DNA from: a virus
IMG/VR virus record: IMGVR_UViG_3300037189_022865
Span: 26,597 to 90,596 of that record
Reading direction: 5' to 3' (one strand)
DNA: 64,000 nucleotides
In this document: positions 4,730 to 15,521 of the stretch, piece after piece
How the letters are laid out: each line of letters begins with the position of its first letter
How positions within the stretch are numbered: position 1 is the first letter of the stretch
Position numbers and translations under genes: made by a program
The notes under the pieces: model-generated
What the model saw: only the letters and a program-made list of their open reading frames with translations
Told to the model about the DNA's origin: nothing
Databases searched by the model: none

Positions 4730-4975
4730 ATGGAAGCTATCTTTTTTGTCCTCTTATCAACGATCGCAGGTTCGTTGTTTAAGCACTATCTGGAGCCCGT
4801 GGTGTTAAACAAAGCGGCTCATCTTTTCCCTCAATCTAATATCTTTAACACAAAACCAGAAACAAAAGTAGAACCTACGGAGTTTAATAACGTAAGGTTT
4901 AAGCGCACTATCAATGGATATACAACAATCTATGTTTCGAGTCCAACACGGACAGATACAACCTACGTCAGGTAA
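4730..4975 (+). CDS. Small protein with one N-terminal membrane segment
   Basis: 81 residues. The start MEAIFFVLLSTIAGSLF is a likely single membrane segment or signal anchor; the rest is polar. Its place next to the peptidase gene suggests a lysis accessory (holin or spanin-like), but no family motif supports this. The 3' end overlaps the DNA polymerase start (ATG 4914) by 62 bases in another frame. Confidence 0.5.
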   Translation: MEAIFFVLLSTIAGSLFKHYLEPVVLNKAAHLFPQSNIFNTKPETKVEPTEFNNVRFKRTINGYTTIYVSSPTRTDTTYVR

Positions 4976-6794
4976 AGAACTCACCAAAGAGATCAAGTCC
5001 TGAGACATAATAGCTTTAGATACAGAGGTAACTGGAGATTTTGATAATATCTTTGATAGAAGAATTGTCATGCTGCAGTTTGGTAACAAAGAAGTTCAGT
5101 ACATTATAGACACAAGGAAAGCGGACCCTACTAAGCTCCTCAAAGAATTATCCAAGAAAAAGATCATAGGTCACAACATTAAGTTCGACTACCAAGTTAT
5201 AAAGACTAACTATGGGATTGAGCTTGAAGATCTATTCGATACCATGCTTGCAGCACAAATACTGGAGTGTGGGATGGATGAGGAGAAGGGACATTTTACC
5301 CTAGAGCAAACCGCTAGACGCTACACAGGGTATCACTACTACTCCAATCAAGGTAACTTATTTATTCCAGCAGTTACCAAAAAGATAAGGAGTTCTTTTT
5401 CTAGTATAGGAGATAAACCGTTTGAGTTAGAGCAGCTCTATTATGGAGCTCTTGACGTTTCGGTTGCATATCTCTTGTATGAGAAACAGAAGATTCAGCT
5501 TGAGAAAAATGAGCTTGAGTCAACAGCAGAGCTAGAGTTCAACTTCGTGAAAGTTCTTGCTGATATGGAATTGAGTGGTGTATATCTCAACCAAAAACAG
5601 TGGTTAGAGAATTATCGCAACACACTACAACAAACCGAAGAATTGCGAAAGAAACTGGAGGAGTATCAACAACTAAACTGAAACTCCCACAAGCAGGTTT
5701 TACCTGTACTCAAAGAGCTTGGTGTTGACGTGTCGATTATAGACAAGAAAACAGGTGAGATAAAGGAGTCTGTATCTCGCGAAGTCTTAAAGAAGCAAAC
5801 AGCTAAGGCTGGTATTCTGAAGACTTATCTTGACTATAAGCTTTCCCAAAAGGAATCATCTACCTATGGTGAAAAGTTTTTAAGGCACGTCAACCCAACT
5901 TCTCAAAGAGTTCACTCTTCTTATATGCAAATTATGAGAACTGGAAGAACTTCTTCTACTTCCCCTAATTGTCAATCTATTAAGAGGGGATCTATATACC
6001 GATCAGCATTTCAAGCTGAAGAAGGTAATACCTTTGTAGGTGCAGACTTCTCTAATATAGAAGCAAGGATACTCGCTGATAAGTCTAATGACGAAAACTT
6101 TATTAACATCTTTATAAACAATGGTGATTACCATTTAGAAACTGCTAAGCTAGCTTTTGATAATCCTAATCTAACCAAAGGATCTGAAGAAAGACAGTTA
6201 GCAAAGACTATTAACTTCGCAATTGCTTTTGGTGCTGGAGCTAAGAAAGTATCAGAAGGTGCTGGAGTTACTTTACAGAAAGGAAAAGAACTATTAAATA
6301 AAGTTTATACTGCTTTCCCAAAACTTAGTCCTTACTTTATAGAGATGGGTAATCTCACAAGGGAAAGAGGATATGTTGTGTGTAATGAAGTATCAAAAAG
6401 AAGAAGTTATATACCGTTTTATAATGAATACTTAGAAGCTAAGAAACATTATAACTACTTTAAAGCAATGGGTTGGGATCCTCATCCTACTATTGCATCA
6501 GCATATAAAACTTGGGATTCTAAAATACAAAGATGGTCACAAAACTTGCCTGTCCAAGCTACCGCTGCTGACATAGCAAAAGCCACCTGTATAGAACTCA
6601 GAGAGAAGTCTAAAAAAATTCCATTCAATCTCGTTTTATTCGTACATGACGAAGTTGTAGTAGAGTGCGAAAAAGAACGCGCAAACACTATATCTAAGCT
6701 TATTGAAAAAACAGGATTAGAATGCTCGAAAAAATTCCTGAATCATTTAACAGTCCCTGCAGAAGCACACGTATCTTCGCAGTGGGAAAAGTAA
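4914..6794 (+). CDS. polA: Family A DNA polymerase with 3'-5' exonuclease
   Basis: 626 residues, only intact if TGA at 5001-5003 (Trp30) and 5679-5681 (Trp256) are Trp. The N-terminal exonuclease domain starts with IIALDTEVTGDF (Asp36, Glu38: exo I DxE) and continues with a HNIKFDYQV exo II element. The polymerase domain has TGRTSS, motif A FVGADFSNIEAR (Asp ~378), motif B RQLAKTINFAIAFGAG (~428-443) and motif C FVHDEVVVE (~580). There is no 5'-3' exonuclease domain, as in T7-type and crAss-like replicative polymerases. It copies the phage genome with the primase and DnaB-like helicase encoded downstream. Start ATG 4914 is the first in frame; ATG 4932 is an alternative. Ends TAA four bases before the next gene. 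Confidence 0.93.
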
Positions 6795-6798
6795 AACC

Positions 6799-7896
6799 AT
6801 GAACGAAGCAACTTTCTTTTTCGTCGTCAGTATTGCGGCTTTGGTCGCAGCACTAGCGTTCTTCTTTTACCGAGCTAAGAAAGACCCAGAAAATAAAGGT
6901 CTAGAGCCCGGTGCTATTCTTATAAAATTCTTTATAAAGTATCCTCTAACGGTGTTTATTACGATGCAGTTGGTTGCCATGATTTCAGAGGCAGCTCTTC
7001 TTGCATCTATTCCAGAGACACTGCTGAATGTAAGTGCAAGTATGGCAACGCATATGTTTATTGCGTTAGTCGGTGCACTGGGTGCATTTATGTTAACAAA
7101 ATACTTGGGTTCTTTTGTCTCCGCTTTCTTTAGTAAAGAAAAGTTTCCAGTGAAGATTTCTGTTATCATGTTAACTTTATGTTTATCCATGATTTCTTTG
7201 GTCTTTACCTTGGGTTCCCCGGTATACAATCTCTATGCAATGGCATCAAGATTACACCAAGTTCCACAACTTGAACTCTATCTTACCAGTCTTCAAGTAG
7301 AGTATCTGAATATGGACCCAAGAGTACTTGCCAAACTCATGCAGATACACAAAGTTCCGCTAGACTATTCTCCATTTCAGGCACTTCATCCCGGCATTGT
7401 AACTTCACTTGCATTATCTACCGCTCACATTTTTATTACAGTGTGGGAGGTATTGGTATCTCTTTTGTACGCATTGAAGAATGACGGCATTCAGCACGCA
7501 ATTCTCGGCGACTTTGCGAATACTCCGCCTAGAAAAGAAGAGAAGAAAGAGGAAAAGAAGGAAGAGAAGAAGGAAGAGAAGAAGGAAGAAAAGAAAGAGG
7601 AGAAGAAAGAGGAAAACATTGATGCTACCAAAGTTAAGGACAAGGTACAAGAGCTTCTCAAAATTCACGGTATGACCGATCCAAAGAGGATTGAGGATAC
7701 AGCTCAGAAACTTGTTCCTTACATCTACAAACAGGCTGATGCTGGTTCAGTGAAGAAAGTCGCTGACCTTATGAACTTCATTCACAAGTATCGTGAGGCA
7801 GAGAAGAACAAACAAAACACTCAACCTATTAAGGATGAGATTCACGAACTCGTAAAGGGCCTGACTAACGGCAGTTTCACCTTACCAAAAAACTAA
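6799..7896 (+). CDS. Multi-pass membrane protein with Lys/Glu-rich linker
   Basis: 365 residues. About five hydrophobic segments lie in the first 235 residues (for example FFFVVSIAALVAALAFFFY and VIMLTLCLSMISLVF). A highly charged linker of repeated KKEE units (coded by 7531-7614) follows, then a helical soluble tail (DKVQELLKIHGM...). It lies directly after polA, so it might tether replication to the membrane; this is only inferred from position. The last codons are CCA AAA AAC TAA, which form a perfect A_AAA_AAC slippery heptamer in frame; a -1 shift there would fuse this protein to the zinc-ribbon protein. Confidence 0.75.
   Translation: MNEATFFFVVSIAALVAALAFFFYRAKKDPENKGLEPGAILIKFFIKYPLTVFITMQLVAMISEAALLASIPETLLNVSASMATHMFIALVGALGAFMLTKYLGSFVSAFFSKEKFPVKISVIMLTLCLSMISLVFTLGSPVYNLYAMASRLHQVPQLELYLTSLQVEYLNMDPRVLAKLMQIHKVPLDYSPFQALHPGIVTSLALSTAHIFITVWEVLVSLLYALKNDGIQHAILGDFANTPPRKEEKKEEKKEEKKEEKKEEKKEEKKEENIDATKVKDKVQELLKIHGMTDPKRIEDTAQKLVPYIYKQADAGSVKKVADLMNFIHKYREAEKNKQNTQPIKDEIHELVKGLTNGSFTLPKN
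7531..7614 (+). repeat. Purine-only tandem repeat coding KKEE units
   Basis: About 84 bases consisting almost entirely of A and G, built from degenerate 12- and 15-base units such as GAAGGAAGAGAA. It encodes the Lys/Glu linker of the membrane protein. Copy number is likely variable through slippage. Confidence 0.8.
7887..7893 (+). other. Candidate -1 ribosomal frameshift site A_AAA_AAC
   Basis: The heptamer is in the correct zero-frame register (CCA AAA AAC TAA). After a -1 slip the next codons are CTA ACG GGC GTA ACG TGT GAC TAT TGT and run without a stop into the zinc-ribbon gene, which has no ATG, GTG or TTG upstream of its first Cys pair. I see no strong downstream pseudoknot by eye. Confidence 0.5.
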
Positions 7897-8603
7897 CGGG
7901 CGTAACGTGTGACTATTGTAACAACACTAAAGTAAAATCGGTGTACGCTAATACAACTAATCCATGGAAAGATTTTTACCATGGGGACTGTAGAAGCTGC
8001 TTCGAGGTTAGGTGGCTAGACGCTGCGGGGATATGTGAGAAGTGTAATAGAGGCAATTCAAAACTCTCTTTACGTACTGTAAACATTTGCGATAGTTGTA
8101 TTACTGCAAATAAAATATCCCCAATATGCAAAAGATGTGCTTCAATCGTTGAAGAATATGCTGAAGGTACTACTGAATGTATACAGTGTGCTTACGGTAA
8201 AGACTTTAAACCTGATCCACAATACGCCACTGGTGTGTGTATACAATGCAAACGCGTTACGCACTTAGACGGTGATGAAACCTGCTTAAGCTGCCACATA
8301 ATAAATTCGGCGGCTAATGCGCAAAACAACGACTGGGGTAACCTAAAAAGATGCGGCTGTGGAGAAGTAATTCACAAGAAGCAAAAGGTATGTCCCAATT
8401 GTGCAAGCAAACCTGTAAATTTGCGTAAGGACAAGCTGTGTCACGGCTGTCAAACGCACTTCAAACCAATATCTATATACGACACCTTCTGCATACCTTG
8501 TAAAGAAAACATTCATCGAGGTGTGTGTACCTCTTGTAGAGAGCTTTCCAACTCTATGGACTCAAGGGGCTGGTGTTCTAAATGCCAATCATCTAATGGA
8601 TAA
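7893..8603 (+). CDS. Zinc-ribbon array protein, possibly a frameshift extension of the membrane protein
   Basis: The reading frame is open from 7893; the first usual start codon is GTG 7941. After GTG there are 13 CxxC-type knuckles (including one CGC). Adding the upstream CDYC coded at 7908-7919 makes 14, which pair neatly into seven zinc ribbons: CDYC/CRSC, CEKC/CDSC, CKRC/CIQC, CIQC/CLSC, CGC/CPNC, CHGC/CIPC, CTSC/CSKC. This argues that translation enters from upstream, best explained by the -1 slip at 7887-7893. Zinc-ribbon arrays usually bind nucleic acid or proteins; no enzyme domain is present. It ends with TAA 8601-8603, overlapping the helicase start at 8596. Confidence 0.65.
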   Translation, partial: LTGVTCDYCNNTKVKSVYANTTNPWKDFYHGDCRSCFEVRWLDAAGICEKCNRGNSKLSLRTVNICDSCITANKISPICKRCASIVEEYAEGTTECIQCAYGKDFKPDPQYATGVCIQCKRVTHLDGDETCLSCHIINSAANAQNNDWGNLKRCGCGEVIHKKQKVCPNCASKPVNLRKDKLCHGCQTHFKPISIYDTFCIPCKENIHRGVCTSCRELSNSMDSRGWCSKCQSSNG

Positions 8604-9621
8604 AAGAACTCAAATGCAGGAGGAAGCAGTTGCCTCCTGAAAACAAAACAATGGATGGGGTACCCTGTTGATATATACGGGCGGGGGGAAGACACGATGC
8701 GGCTTAATGGCTTACCAAGATTTAGGCAAGCCCAGAACATTAGTAGTCACCTCCCGCCTGCCCATTCTAAACCAATGGAAAGAGGTTATGACAGGAACTA
8801 ATATAAAGTTTATGTGTATCCAATCTGCTTACAAACATAAAGGATATTACGATTTAGTTATAATAGATGAGGTTCATAGATCTTTATCACCTAAATATAG
8901 GGAAGTATTTAGCGGCATAAAAGCTAAGCATTTAATGTGCTTAACAGCCACACTTCCAGAAGAAGCAGAGTATGTAGAGTTCTTAGCTAAAACTTGTCCA
9001 GTAATTTATGAGAAGAAGCTAAAAGATGCTTTAAAGGATGAGATGGTTCCTCAGTTTGAGATATATAACTTTTCAGTACCTCTACACAAAACTATATCTG
9101 GTAAGTACAAACTCTTTGACAATAAGTTTACGCAGTCAATGATAAAACTTACTAGAACTCTAATGGATAATCCTAAACTGAAATCAAAATACAAAAATGT
9201 TTTTGAGTTAGCTCAAGCTGCTCAGTGGGCTTCTTTTGATAAGGAGACACAAGGATTATGTAAATCTTATTGGGCTGGAATGACTATGCGAAAGCAGTTA
9301 GTTTATTCTAATCCGGCGAAGCTAAAAGCAATTCGAGATATACTAAACCACATGGGGATGAGTCGCAAGTGGATAATCTTTACTAAGTCCATCGCATTTG
9401 CTAAAAGTTTGCAAGAGTATTTAGGAGGTAACACTGCTATATACCACTCAAAACTAAAACCAATAGAAAGAGAATTAAACTTAATAGCATTTGAACAAAA
9501 TCAGTTTAATATTCTTATAGCAGTTGACGCTTTAAACGAGGGATTAAATGTCTCCCAAGTAGAAGCAGCTATTTGTGCTGCTGGCGTATCCACAGAGTTA
9601 ACAAATTCCCAGCAGTTGGGT
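8596..9621 (+). CDS. SF2 DNA helicase, exon 1
   Basis: Starts at ATG 8596 (8-base overlap with the zinc-ribbon gene; ATG 8614 is an alternative). TGA 8638-8640 is Trp15 (AVASWKQNNGWG). A Q-motif-like RTQMQEEAV leads into Walker A YTGGGKT (27-33), and motif II is IIDEVHRS (DEVH, ~91-94). The second RecA-like domain carries WIIFTKSIAFAKSL (motif IV) and VDALNEGLNV (motif V). The exon ends after codon 342 in QQLG, inside motif VI. Splicing to CGA at 10473 restores QLGRIIRPEKGK. The protein is a DEAD/H-type ATP-dependent helicase of the phage UvsW/T5-D10 sort, expected to act on forks or recombination intermediates, and lies in the replication cluster between two zinc-finger genes. Confidence 0.88.
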
Positions 9622-9773
9622 CAGTAATTCGGCCCGTACCAAGTTAATTCGGTGAAGCCTAAGTCGAAAGATATGGTAATACCGAGCCAAGCAGGAAGAA
9701 ATTCCGGGCGTGTGTAGAGCACATCCCCTTTGTCGGGGAGTAGTGAAATATCTGATAAATATTTTGCGAAACA

Positions 9774-9805
9774 CTTGGAATTTATCAAAAATTGTTGTAC
9801 ATTTG
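9774..9805 (+). promoter_or_regulatory. Possible Bacteroidota-type promoter for the intron HNH gene
   Basis: TTGG at 9775-9778 and TACATTTG at 9798-9805 are 19 bases apart and fit the Bacteroides -33 TTTG / -7 TAnnTTTG pattern (second element exact, first with a mismatch). The predicted start of transcription falls at about the ATG (9810), implying a leaderless message. Confidence 0.3.
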
Positions 9806-9809
9806 TATA

Positions 9810-10439
9810 ATGGAAAATATAATATGGAAATCTATAGTAGGATCTTTACACTATTCAGTAAGTAATACTGGGTTAGTTAGGAGAGATTCTCATGAGAAAA
9901 TGCACAACATAAATAAAAAACCTTTCTTGACAAAAGAGAAAATATTAGCACCTAGCACAAATAACACTAAAGGGTATAAAAGGTTACTTATAAAATATCC
10001 ACAACGTATTAAAACTAAATCAGTTCACAGATTAGTGGCTGAAGCTTTTGTACCAAACTTGATGGCTAAACCTCAAGTAAATCATATTGATGGGGATATA
10101 TTAAATAATCACTGCTCTAATTTAGAGTGGGTAACTAATGATGAGAATGCTGAACACGCAGCAAGGACCAAAAAACGTAAGCACAAAAAAGGTTCTTCAG
10201 TTGTGTGGAGCAAACTTACTGAAAATGAAGTTGCACAAATACCAGAGTTATTACAAAAATTTAGTGTTGCTGAAATAGCTAAACAATTTAATGTTAGTAA
10301 ATCTCTTATTCACGAGATAATCGCTGGGAGGACTTGGAGGCACTTAAACCTCTTTGAGCCTAAAGCAAGAAAGTGTGAAAAGTATTTTGATAAATTAAGA
10401 TATGTGCCGACCACTGCTGAAAAGCAGGAAACTTCGTAG
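9810..10439 (+). CDS. HNH homing endonuclease within the intron
   Basis: 209 residues from ATG 9810 (IWKSIVGSLHYSVSNTG, a NUMOD4-type motif). The HNH core follows: SVHRLVAEAFVPN, QVNHIDGDILNNHCSNLEWV (His/Asn metal and catalytic residues), then a C-terminal helix-turn-helix (SVAEIAKQFNVSKSLIHEI) that should read the target site. It cuts intronless alleles at the helicase motif VI sequence so that the intron is copied in by repair. All Trp codons are TGG and it has no in-frame TGA, unlike most neighbours, which fits independent acquisition. Its 3' end overlaps the ribozyme P7 and later helices, so sequence there is under double constraint. Confidence 0.9.
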   Translation: MENIIWKSIVGSLHYSVSNTGLVRRDSHEKMHNINKKPFLTKEKILAPSTNNTKGYKRLLIKYPQRIKTKSVHRLVAEAFVPNLMAKPQVNHIDGDILNNHCSNLEWVTNDENAEHAARTKKRKHKKGSSVVWSKLTENEVAQIPELLQKFSVAEIAKQFNVSKSLIHEIIAGRTWRHLNLFEPKARKCEKYFDKLRYVPTTAEKQETS

Positions 10440-10472
10440 TCTAATCAACTACTATAAAGAAGTTTACAAAAG

Positions 10473-10592
10473 CGAATTATACGTCCTGAAAAAGGAAAAA
10501 AGCCCGTGTTTATTAATCTGTACACAGAAGGTACGGTTGAGAAAACTTGGGTAGAAAAGAAACTTAAATCAAGCGGATTAAAAAGCAGATGA
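10473..10592 (+). CDS. SF2 DNA helicase, exon 2
   Basis: Begins CGA and supplies RIIRPEKGKKPVFINLY and TEGTVEKTWVEKKL, the end of motif VI and the usual C-terminal strand and helix of these helicases. The natural end is TGA 10590-10592, which overlaps the next start as ATGA (ATG 10589). If this TGA is also read as Trp the protein gains 27 residues up to TAG 10671-10673. Since codon 15 of the same gene is TGA-Trp, one gene appears to use TGA in both roles unless the tail is made. Confidence 0.8.
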   Translation, partial: RIIRPEKGKKPVFINLYTEGTVEKTWVEKKLKSSGLKSR

Positions 10593-11743
10593 GCAAGCAC
10601 GGTGTACGACCTTCCGAAACAAGCATTACTAAGTTTATCCGAAGCAACAGAGTCTTCCTTCCCCCGAACATAGGTAAACATCTCAGGGGAGCTTCTTTGG
10701 AAGACTTTTGCCCTTTTTGTTTGGCTGAACATAATAACAACACAATATTCTATAGAAAGAAGATAAGCGAGCCTCTGAGCATTCTTCTTAATACATACTC
10801 TTGTGATATGTGCAACGAGGAGATAGAGAAGAAATCTTCTGATAAAAACATGGAGGATATGTTTGAGGAGTTCTCTGTTAGAGCTGGAGTTAAAGCCATA
10901 CAAAGAATAGACGGGGTTGTGCATGAGGCAAGTTTCCCTAATGACACTCATAAATTCTATAATCACTTAAACCCAGATAAAGAGCCTTTTAGGATTACCC
11001 CAGACTGCTGCTTGTTTTGTCAAGTTCATCTAGGCGCAGCAAAGAACGAACAAGTAGATCCACAAAAGAAGTTGTTTGTAGAGTACTTTATACCTGTTGG
11101 TATGGAGATGTATCATCTTGACGGCGGACAAGTAAAAGTCTGCAGATCTTGTGATCTAGTCATGACTTCTAAGCTAAGTGATACATACATTGCTCACCTA
11201 CTAACTTTCTCAGGTATAGATATCTGCAAAAGATGTGGCGATCAGTATTTTGTAAATAATAGCGAGGTAGATAGTCGCAATGCTTCTCAAACTTTTGGGA
11301 AACATATGTGCCCAGAATGTTGTTATAATAATCTACAATCAGAGGATAAGCTCATGTATGAGGGGGAAAACCTAATGGTTCCTTACTCAAATATAGTTAG
11401 AGACGAGTTCCATAAAATACAAAGATTCGTAGATGTTAATTGTTCTTACTGCTCTTCTCCAGTAGCTATTGACTTAACAATGCACCCTGAGGAAGTTATA
11501 AACAAGCATACAGAAACTAACTTAAAGTTTATTTGCGACGATTGTATCTTCAGAGAGACTGCTCCTATAAACGTCTTAGTAAAAGACGACATAATTACTA
11601 GAATCTTTAATATAAACGATAAATTCTACATTAAAAGAGTTACTACTAAAGGCAAGTTCCTAAACTTTGATACCTCTTTAAATGCAGAAGAAGTTTTAAA
11701 GTTTTTATTAGCTGAAGAAAATGAACAACTTACACTATACTAA
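10589..11743 (+). CDS. Zinc-finger protein, 384 aa
   Basis: Starts at ATG 10589 in an ATGA overlap with the helicase and ends with TAA 11741-11743. It has at least five pairs of zinc knuckles spread along its length: CPFC...CDMC, CLFC...CRSC, CKRC...CPEC, CSYC...CDDC. The arrangement resembles HNH-like or zinc-ribbon scaffolds, but I see no catalytic HNH triad. Together with the zinc-ribbon array upstream it flanks the helicase, suggesting a shared nucleoprotein complex. Function not established. Confidence 0.7.
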   Translation: MSKHGVRPSETSITKFIRSNRVFLPPNIGKHLRGASLEDFCPFCLAEHNNNTIFYRKKISEPLSILLNTYSCDMCNEEIEKKSSDKNMEDMFEEFSVRAGVKAIQRIDGVVHEASFPNDTHKFYNHLNPDKEPFRITPDCCLFCQVHLGAAKNEQVDPQKKLFVEYFIPVGMEMYHLDGGQVKVCRSCDLVMTSKLSDTYIAHLLTFSGIDICKRCGDQYFVNNSEVDSRNASQTFGKHMCPECCYNNLQSEDKLMYEGENLMVPYSNIVRDEFHKIQRFVDVNCSYCSSPVAIDLTMHPEEVINKHTETNLKFICDDCIFRETAPINVLVKDDIITRIFNINDKFYIKRVTTKGKFLNFDTSLNAEEVLKFLLAEENEQLTLY

Positions 11744-11976: not shown

Positions 11977-12214
11977 TCAAAATATTTTGGCTACGATTGA
12001 CTTAGAGGACACCTCCAGTAGGAGTCCTGACAAATCCAGAATGGAAGCTGTTCTAATAGTTTATAAAACAAAATCTACAAAACGCACATCTTACGGCTCC
12101 TCAATAAGCTACAAGTATCGCAGATCTCAACACCGTATAAGAAAGAGCTTCGGTCCTTTTGTTACTTTTGTAGAGGCATTAGAAAAAGCTTTAATATACT
12201 GGTATGGCGCATAG
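11963..12214 (+). CDS. Hypothetical basic protein, 83 aa
   Basis: I chose ATG 11963 because it overlaps the previous gene by only 14 bases; ATG 11951 and 11957 are alternatives. Residues include a Ser/Lys/Tyr-rich centre (TKSTKRTSYGSSISYKYRR). Ends with TAG, overlapping the next start by 11 bases. The tight overlaps indicate one operon. Family not recognised. Confidence 0.55.
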   Translation: MKSDNQNILATIDLEDTSSRSPDKSRMEAVLIVYKTKSTKRTSYGSSISYKYRRSQHRIRKSFGPFVTFVEALEKALIYWYGA

Positions 12215-12509
12215 AATCATTCAAATGTACTACGAGACTACTCATGGATTTTTAAATCTTTATATAGAGCTAAATAGTTACACTGAAGAGGACAAAATAA
12301 AGTCTAAATTTAAAGCTTCTATTGTCGTAAGAAATGACGAGAGAGTTGCCGAAGAAATTACTCTTAACCAAACTACTTGGAATTCTTCCTTTATGTCTAC
12401 TCTAGATGAGGGCATTCAACTTGCTTTTAAAGAAGGTGCGATAAAGCTACTCTTCTATAAAGAGCTAGAAGACTCTAACTACATTAACAGTCTTTTTTAT
12501 GAAAAATAA
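12204..12509 (+). CDS. Hypothetical protein, 101 aa
   Basis: ATG 12204 overlaps the previous gene; the stop overlaps the next start at 12499. The predicted fold is beta-sheet then helix (FLNLYIELNSYTEEDKIK, then TLDEGIQLAFKEGAIKLLF), similar in rhythm to the gene at 11743. No recognisable domain. Confidence 0.6.
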   Translation: MAHRIIQMYYETTHGFLNLYIELNSYTEEDKIKSKFKASIVVRNDERVAEEITLNQTTWNSSFMSTLDEGIQLAFKEGAIKLLFYKELEDSNYINSLFYEK

Positions 12510-13023
12510 AATGAGATTGCTTCACACGGAGGAATACGACGATTTCTATCTTCAAATATATTCCTATAAAGGCTTAGGCGCTCCAGAAGTGTTTACCTTT
12601 CACATAAGCTTCCAAAAGAGTAAGGGCAGAAGATTTATTCTACTCACATCTCTAAGATATAAATATGTAACTGATACCGTTGAACATGGTATTTATTTCT
12701 TTAAACAAATAGTGTCCTTCTTTGTCTCTTCAGAATTTAAGTCTATAGGCAAGTATGGTTACTTTCAATACGATGACTTTCATTTAAAATATATAAATGT
12801 TGCTATTAACTTCAAATACTGTGAGTGCCTTAGATTCGATGAAGTTTCCAATGAGGTGTTTAGTGGAGATGTATCTTATCTATACAAGCCAGAGGAACTA
12901 CCCTCAAGAAGTTCCAGAGCAAGATCTGAGTTTACTCAAAAGAATGGACCTAATTCAGATAGACGCTACAAACAAGATCCAGTTGTCAAATACTGGGCAA
13001 GCGTTTCTTTTGAACTACCTTAA
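12499..13023 (+). CDS. Hypothetical protein, 174 aa
   Basis: Starts ATG 12499. The first ~130 residues are rich in Phe and Tyr with alternating strands (EYDDFYLQIYSYKGLG, GYFQYDDFHLKYINVAINF). The last ~50 residues overlap the replication-initiator-like gene in another frame and are Ser/Arg/Pro-rich, so the real C-terminus of the ancestral protein was probably shorter. No family recognised. Confidence 0.5.
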   Translation: MKNKMRLLHTEEYDDFYLQIYSYKGLGAPEVFTFHISFQKSKGRRFILLTSLRYKYVTDTVEHGIYFFKQIVSFFVSSEFKSIGKYGYFQYDDFHLKYINVAINFKYCECLRFDEVSNEVFSGDVSYLYKPEELPSRSSRARSEFTQKNGPNSDRRYKQDPVVKYWASVSFELP

Positions 13024-13360
13024 AGAAGATTTCGATTCAGACCTAAAGTATACCTCTGGGTTTGAGAAATTCTGGAAAACTTTTCCTGCTTCAGATAAGT
13101 GGGATAGGTTTCAAGAAAGCAGAAAGCTAAGGGTGAATAAGAAAGAGACGTTTGTCCAGTATCTAAAGGCTTTAAATAATGTAACTGAAGAGTATCTACA
13201 AAAATCAATAGAGACAGAGATTGCTAATAAGAAAGCTTCGTCTCCATTAGAGAATCCTTTTAAGTACATGAAGGCTTCTTATAACTGGCTAGCTAACGAA
13301 GAGTACAACAATGTTTCTTTTGAACAACAAAAAATAGTTTCAGACGACGACTTATTATAA
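12869..13360 (+). CDS. Replication-initiator or helicase-loader-like protein with winged helix
   Basis: 163 residues from ATG 12869. The N-terminal part reads as a winged helix (EQDLSLLKRMDLIQID then IQLSNTGQAFLLNYL). The C-terminal part has FEKFWKTFPASDKW, RKLRVNKKETFVQYLKAL and a final NWLANEEY, a pattern seen in phage replication proteins that end in a DnaT-like domain and load DnaB helicase. It overlaps the helicase start (TAATG at 13358-13362), supporting a joint role at the origin. An earlier in-frame start at 12797 would increase overlap with the preceding gene. Confidence 0.6.
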   Translation: MYLIYTSQRNYPQEVPEQDLSLLKRMDLIQIDATNKIQLSNTGQAFLLNYLKEDFDSDLKYTSGFEKFWKTFPASDKWDRFQESRKLRVNKKETFVQYLKALNNVTEEYLQKSIETEIANKKASSPLENPFKYMKASYNWLANEEYNNVSFEQQKIVSDDDLL

Positions 13361-14651: not shown

Positions 14652-15521
14652 CAATAGCTAGGTCCTGTACCTGTCTAATTGCTGGAAACTCCTTAGAGTT
14701 TATTATACTACAAAGCAGCTTTGAAATATAGGCAAACTTGAATGTTAAAAAATAATAAAATTGGACAATCAGCAGCGAAGCTCCGAACAGGAGAACGTTC
14801 AGAGATCATCCCTCCGAAGGGGAGTAGGGAAATTATTTATTCCCGAAATGGCAGGACTTCGTAGATGTGTATATTGTTTAATAGACAGTTCTAATAATAG
14901 AATTAGATATATTGGTAAAACAGAATGCGCGTTATCAAAAAGATTAAGAGAGCATTTGCAAGACTCTAGAAGACATAATACTAAAGTCAGTAGGTGAGTG
15001 CACAATAGAGTAGATAACGGATATGATATAATAATGCGCCCATTAATATGTGATGTAGATTTAAATGTGTGAGAAAAAAGATTTATAAAAATCTTTAAAC
15101 ATAAGAACTTTAAACTATTAAATATGACTGATGGGGGCGGCGGTGTTTTAGGCACAAAGCAAACTGAGGAAACAAAGATTAAAAAGTCTTTAGCTCTTTC
15201 GGGTAAAAAGAAAAGCCCAGAACACATAGACAAAATGAGAAAAGCTTTTTCAAAAACAGCATTTGTTTACAACGCTGTAAATGGTAAGTTTGTAGGGGAG
15301 TATAGCTCATTTAAGCAAGCCAGCAAAGATTTGATAGTTAATCATACAGGACTACTTCTTTCCGCTAAATACGGAAGACATGTAAAAAACTACAGAGCTT
15401 TTTATACATATCAAGGAAATGTAATTCCAGTAAAACCAAAATACTATAAGAAAACATCTATTGAGAAATATATAAACGAAGAAGATATGATCCAAGCCCC
15501 GTAGAAATATGGGGATTCTTG
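14652..15521 (+). ncRNA. Group I self-splicing intron in the Sak4-like gene
   Basis: 870 bases. P1: the exon end GGAT|C pairs with GGTCC at 14671-14675, giving the U-G wobble at the splice site. Core elements are clear: P AATTGCTGGAAACTCC, Q GACAATCAGCAGCGAAGC (14764-14781) and R GTTCAGAGATCAT, whose GATCAT (14814-14819) pairs with ATGATC (15487-15492) to form P7. The intron ends in G 15521. Splicing joins GAT to TTA in frame. The core motifs look like subgroup IA as in T4- and SPO1-type phage introns. A GIY-YIG gene fills the region between the P7 strands. Confidence 0.88.
14848..15504 (+). CDS. GIY-YIG homing endonuclease within the intron
   Basis: 218 residues with TGA-Trp at 14995-14997 and 15070-15072. 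The N-terminal catalytic domain has CVYCLIDSSNNRIRYIGKT (GIY-YIG variant) and RLREHLQD with the conserved Arg. Downstream are a NUMOD3-type repeat (KKSLALSGKKKSPEHIDKM) and a NUMOD1-type helix-turn-helix (GEYSSFKQASKDL). It should cut intronless Sak4 genes near the insertion site. Start ATG 14848 is chosen because it immediately precedes the catalytic domain; the frame is open upstream to TTG 14761 through ribozyme core. The stop TAG lies inside the ribozyme, after the P7 3' strand. Confidence 0.85.

Follow-up and report, generated by a model that had tools for sequence, protein, structure and literature searches.

The well-known frameshifts of phages lie in structural genes, such as the tail-assembly and capsid genes. 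In the tail-assembly pair G/G-T, a frameshift adds a C-terminal extension that has no start codon of its own, and in the haloarchaeal virus HCTV-2 the G-T site is the heptamer A_AAA_AAC (PMC5009743). In the insertion sequence IS1, an A6C motif fuses InsA to InsB', and frameshifting has been reported in about 2% of transcripts (PMC12428005). One analysis found no established stimulator for the IS1 A_AAA_AAC cluster (PMC4066793), whereas a pseudoknot has been reported elsewhere (PMC12428005). Phage proteins that organize DNA replication at the membrane are also known, namely, the membrane-bound p16.7 and p1 of phi29, for which the cited paper describes no frameshift or zinc array (PMC4974454).

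Here we analyzed a 64,000-nucleotide stretch of phage DNA (the window; bases 26597 to 90596 of a 90.6-kb virus record) in which a membrane protein gene is overlapped at its end by a start-less frame encoding an array of cysteine knuckles, which we infer to bind zinc. The two frames are very probably one gene that is expressed through programmed -1 ribosomal frameshifting. That mechanism is already known; in the open-licence literature, we found no described case with this gene pair, module, or architecture. Like insA-insB', the pair has A_AAA_AAC close to where the first gene ends and a second frame that would be made only as a fusion, and the window site resembles the proven A6C site of IS1 in having a weak or no established stimulator (PMC4066793, PMC12428005). 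However, IS1 uses its site for transposase control in an insertion sequence, whereas here a phage membrane protein would gain a zinc array, and one of the phage lineages examined here has a strong hairpin. The likeness to G/G-T is that a start-less C-terminal extension would be added by a frameshift in a phage gene pair. Unlike G/G-T, this pair lies in a replication module, beside a family A DNA polymerase gene (polA) and a superfamily 2 (SF2) helicase gene, and neither the membrane protein nor the zinc array matches a PHROG profile; on these grounds, we rejected a tail-assembly chaperone identity.

A start-less frame at the end of a membrane protein gene

The features of the locus are collected in Table 1. 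The initial annotation had placed a slippery heptamer at the end of the membrane protein gene in the correct phase, and this placement is exact: the motif is of the X_XXY_YYZ type and is split in phase with the 0 frame as A7887, AAA 7888-7890, and AAC 7891-7893. The -1 frame is uninterrupted from the TAA that closes it upstream to its own TAA stop at 8601-8603, and at the shift site it reads CTA ACG GGC GTA ACG TGT GAC TAT TGT, ending in CDYC. The first ATG, GTG, or TTG in this frame is GTG 7941, downstream of the first knuckle. The earlier statement that no such codon precedes the first CxxC is thus true and can be extended, because neither CTG nor ATH occurs ahead of the first knuckle or of GTG 7941. 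The 16 start-less codons in the window are unremarkable by themselves, being expected by chance about 55% of the time. Counted from the shift site, the frame encodes 14 knuckles (CxxC type, with one CxC), compared with 13 from GTG 7941, and the even number does need the upstream-extended frame, as originally noted.

Table 1. Positions of features at the frameshift locus, counted from the first base of the window
Feature	Position	Strand	Description
polA (family A DNA polymerase)	4914..6794	+	exonuclease + polymerase; upstream neighbour; in-frame TGA 5001, 5679
Membrane ORF	6799..7896	+	365 aa; last codons CCA AAA AAC TAA
KEEKK repeat linker	7534..7614	+	within membrane ORF
TAA closing zinc (-1) frame upstream	7866..7868	+	21 nt before heptamer
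Slippery heptamer A_AAA_AAC	7887..7893	+	phased with membrane ORF; kept in near relative (L008/L012-L014) and distant relative (L011)
Zinc array, start-less -1 frame	7893..8603	+	236 codons; 14 knuckles = 7 pairs
0-frame stop TAA abutting heptamer	7894..7896	+	TAG in distant relative
Possible weak stem, GGCGUA (7899-7904) / UACGCU (7943-7948)	7899..7948	+	not more stable than chance
SF2 helicase, first exon	8596..9620	+	downstream neighbour; in-frame TGA 8638-8640

We also asked how often such a site would arise by chance. In this genome, the probability of an in-phase A_AAA_AAC is about 4e-4 per given codon pair, and within the long genes of the window phage it occurs 8 times, compared with 8.6 expected from codon usage. 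Because the motif is not enriched there, the presence of the heptamer by itself is weak evidence. We scanned three genomes for X_XXY_YYZ motifs that were in phase, lay no more than 12 codons from a stop, and led into a -1 extension of 60 codons or more. In each phage (3/3), the membrane-zinc junction was the only site that combined an open frame of >200 codons abutting the motif with a -1 extension of >200 codons. A second apparent heptamer, at position 83364 of genome G002, was discarded as a chance site within an open gene of the other frame.

By hydropathy, the membrane protein has about five hydrophobic segments (residues ~5-23, 44-62, 82-100, 120-138, and 204-222), which are followed by a Lys/Glu repeat linker and a C-terminal helical domain (~276-355). 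Positive residues follow the first segment; by the positive-inside rule, the C terminus, and hence the zinc array, would be cytoplasmic. AlphaFold models built from three-sequence alignments were poor (pLDDT 57.9 and 46.8); that of the membrane protein has a low-confidence mean of 57.9, with the helical domain mostly at ~70-80. Pfam matches of the two proteins were weak or inconsistent. Serinc (PF03348) matched the window membrane protein at 26.5 bits against a cut-off of 24 and gave no match in the homologue from the distant relative. The zinc array resembles the double zinc ribbon (DZR, PF12773) in its paired CxxC knuckles, but membership was rejected, as the array of the distant relative scored 15.5 bits (E 0.02), below the cut-off of 27.3, and the window array gave no match. 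No homologue of either protein was found in 50,697 phage records, neither had a PDB match by sequence, and a scan of GTDB genome contigs with polA and with the zinc array returned no relative.

Conservation in near and distant relatives

The initial annotation suggested a search of related phages for the same heptamer or a natural fusion. The heptamer was found in a near relative, whose membrane protein is 75% identical to that of the window, and in a distant one (36%), which supports the frameshift reading; a natural in-frame fusion was not found. In the near relative, the heptamer, the stop, and the -1 frame are unchanged, and three of its contigs are identical to one another across the compared region. 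Substitutions in the zinc frame number 2/0/8 by codon position. Upstream of the Lys/Glu linker, the window and the near relative are 60 to 78% identical, and downstream of it, zinc array included, they are 96 to 100% identical. Recombination within the linker would be expected to produce this pattern, by exchanging the N-terminal part and keeping the C-terminal domain joined to the array.

The distant relative, an 85-kb contig, carries the most weight. Its gene order is that of the window (polA, membrane protein, zinc array, helicase), and its polA, membrane protein, and zinc array are 56%, 36%, and 33% identical, respectively, to their window counterparts. The membrane ORF ends TCA AAA AAC TAG, that is, A_AAA_AAC and then a stop; upstream, a TAA 12 nt ahead of the heptamer bounds the -1 frame. 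From the shift site, this frame continues for 89 codons without ATG, GTG, or TTG, and these codons contain five knuckles; counted from the upstream stop, the 92 start-less codons would occur by chance about 2% of the time. Reading from the shift site gives 16 knuckles, compared with 11 from the first GTG. The shift would be needed even more clearly here than in the window, and in both lineages only the frameshifted reading yields an even knuckle count (14 and 16). The knuckle before the window GTG aligns with one in the distant relative (CDYCNNT / CSNCKNT), and some of the latter's five can be aligned with the window. Because of this alignment, the stretch ahead of the window GTG is coding. 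The arrangement is thus preserved at 33 to 36% protein identity, although viral sequence scans identified only two independent lineages that have it. A further point counts against the frameshift reading: the last residues of the membrane protein, KN, are conserved, which could reflect a constraint on the protein, and given K and N, codon bias would repeat AAA and AAC about a quarter of the time.

The two genes occur together in these phages and are absent together from others. In two cousins (G003/L015 and L059), the helicase follows polA at once or after one 95-aa ORF, and neither the membrane protein nor the zinc array is present in their available sequence. Because of this joint absence, the membrane and zinc genes behave as one inserted unit.

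The closest competing explanation is that the zinc array is a separate protein, made by re-initiation after the membrane protein stop, either from GTG 7941 or from a non-standard codon. A close overlap of this kind is seen in coupled genes, and the zinc frame offers ACG 7896 and ACG 7905 in addition to GTG 7941. However, a start at GTG 7941 loses a conserved knuckle and leaves 13, and in the distant relative a start at the first GTG, 89 codons beyond the shift site, loses five. Nor is any non-standard start shared: the window lacks CTG and ATH before 7941, and the distant relative has only ATC 10162, which lies before its heptamer, and ATA 10372/10417. Homologues starting at the GTG, which the initial annotation had named as evidence against a frameshift, were not seen. 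We consider re-initiation unlikely.

RNA signals near the heptamer

The two lineages differ in their RNA signals. In the distant relative, a stem of 12 unbroken base pairs (AGUGAAAGCAGG/CUUGCUUUCACU, the innermost being G-U pairs) begins five bases past the heptamer, and 0 of 200 shuffled sequences were as stable. A second stem that would complete an H-type pseudoknot there has only 4 bp and is not convincing. Downstream of the heptamer, no structure beyond chance was detected in the window (111/200 shuffles as stable) or in the near relative (136/200), so the suggested check of RNA structure found a strong hairpin in the distant relative and no stimulator above chance in the window. The possible weak stem listed in Table 1 has a G-U pair that becomes G-C in the near relative. 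A simple search found no H-type pseudoknot in the window, and by eye there was no clear Shine-Dalgarno-like stimulator upstream of the window heptamer. In E. coli, ribosomes shift far less on A_AAA_AAC than on A_AAA_AAG (PMC5009743), and a low yield is therefore to be expected in the window.

The A6 run within the heptamer would also allow transcriptional slippage, in which RNA polymerase adds an A in some transcripts. A run of six A's is short for this process, and the exactly phased heptamer of the distant relative, with its hairpin at a 5-nt spacer, has the layout of a ribosomal site; we regard transcriptional slippage as still less probable than re-initiation. The contigs are metagenomic and there is a homopolymer at the junction, but it is hardly credible that one continuous gene was split by a recent frameshift mutation or by an error of assembly or sequencing, because the six A's and the stop recur in three distinct sequence types on several contigs, one with a membrane protein only 36% identical. 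Sequencing error is very unlikely, since the slippery run is shared but is followed by TAA in one lineage and by TAG in the other.

Proposed mechanism and role

If programmed frameshifting operates at this locus, the majority of ribosomes would decode CCA AAA AAC and stop at TAA, giving the 365-aa membrane protein. A minority would instead slip one base back on A_AAA_AAC while tRNA-Lys occupies the P site and tRNA-Asn the A site; these ribosomes would bypass the stop and continue in the -1 frame, adding 236 zinc-knuckle residues. In the predicted product of about 601 aa (365 + 236), the zinc array would hang from the membrane via the Lys/Glu linker and the helical domain. Ribosomes on the distant relative's mRNA should pause at the 12-bp hairpin, five bases downstream, which should increase the yield. 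For the window, a low yield is probable, with only the heptamer and the stop next to it to determine it.

The gene pair belongs to a replication module with polA, the SF2 helicase, and a DnaB-like helicase. Because of this position and the analogy with the membrane anchors of phi29 (PMC4974454), our leading guess is a role in replication tethering; the analogy is one of how the proteins work, and no sequence relation to p16.7 or p1 is claimed. Tentatively, the protein may serve as a membrane anchor at which replication proteins or DNA are gathered, and frameshifting would then fix the proportion of bare to zinc-bearing anchors. Somewhat more doubtful is the idea that the locus represents an undescribed tethering device of phages that read TGA as tryptophan: a multi-pass anchor, a frameshift-set fraction of which carries a seven- or eight-ribbon array. 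In such a device, the array would gather DNA or replisome proteins at the membrane. A conserved frameshift that lies in a replication module and determines whether or not a membrane protein bears a zinc array would widen the known uses of frameshifting and would reveal a protein pair matching no PHROGs profile. Gene callers will misannotate the pair because its second part has no start codon.

Genetic code of the window phage

In this clade, TGA acts as a sense codon, and the window phage reads it as tryptophan throughout, replication genes and TerL included. Among code-4 ORFs of at least 150 aa, those with TGA number 27 of 53 in the window genome, 26/49 in G001, and 33/61 in G002, as against 8/48 in G003. 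In relatives, tryptophan is by far the commonest standard residue opposite TGA (12 and 21 alignments), and many of the other residues found there probably come from antisense frames. The window genome and G002 each encode a tRNA with anticodon UCA plus a tmRNA; crAss-like phages are already known to read through UGA by means of suppressor tRNAs (PMC7886860). TAA and TAG are still stops. The recoding splits polA and the helicase in standard-code annotation, but as the stops that bound the frames are TAA and TAG, it was rejected as the cause of the start-less frame.

In the UCA tRNA of the window phage (L002 7643-7736, minus strand), the variable arm is long and the acceptor stem has 7 bp, a shape that by eye is unlike the usual Trp or Sec tRNA; that of G002 is 77 nt long. 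The tmRNA (L002 8560-8808, minus strand; Rfam RF00023, 62.9 bits) has a long tag, DNSYADALIVPENSTSYVSQEVEILELVYA, and the distant relative also has a tmRNA (L048 8478-8758).

Phage group and neighbouring genes

The phages form a group of uncultured, crAss-related viruses. TerL is 35% identical over 97% of its length to that of Cellulophaga phage phi14:2 (Steigviridae), which relates it to the TerL of crAss-like phages (order Crassvirales). A profile search of phi14:2 gave nothing significant, and three of the four giant late ORFs scanned had no PHROG match.

The helicase gene starts at an ATG (8596) that overlaps the stop of the zinc array. An 851-bp insertion (9621-10471), absent from the near relative, interrupts the helicase gene of the window at the conserved QQLGR motif. 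The insertion encodes an HNH/NUMOD4 endonuclease (9810-10439) and weakly matches the group I intron family (RF00028, 20.1 bits, under threshold), and a group I intron is its likely identity. Immediately after the helicase, at 10589-11743, is a second cysteine-rich protein of 384 aa with many CxxC pairs and no PHROG match. It has a counterpart in the same place in the distant relative (12124-13272) and is a possible partner of the zinc array. One or more GIY-YIG-like ORFs, recognized by eye after the DnaB-like helicase (14761-15504), are likely another mobile element. Additionally, a Type-P3 twister ribozyme (RF03154, 48.1 bits) lies at L002 16463-16526 on the plus strand.
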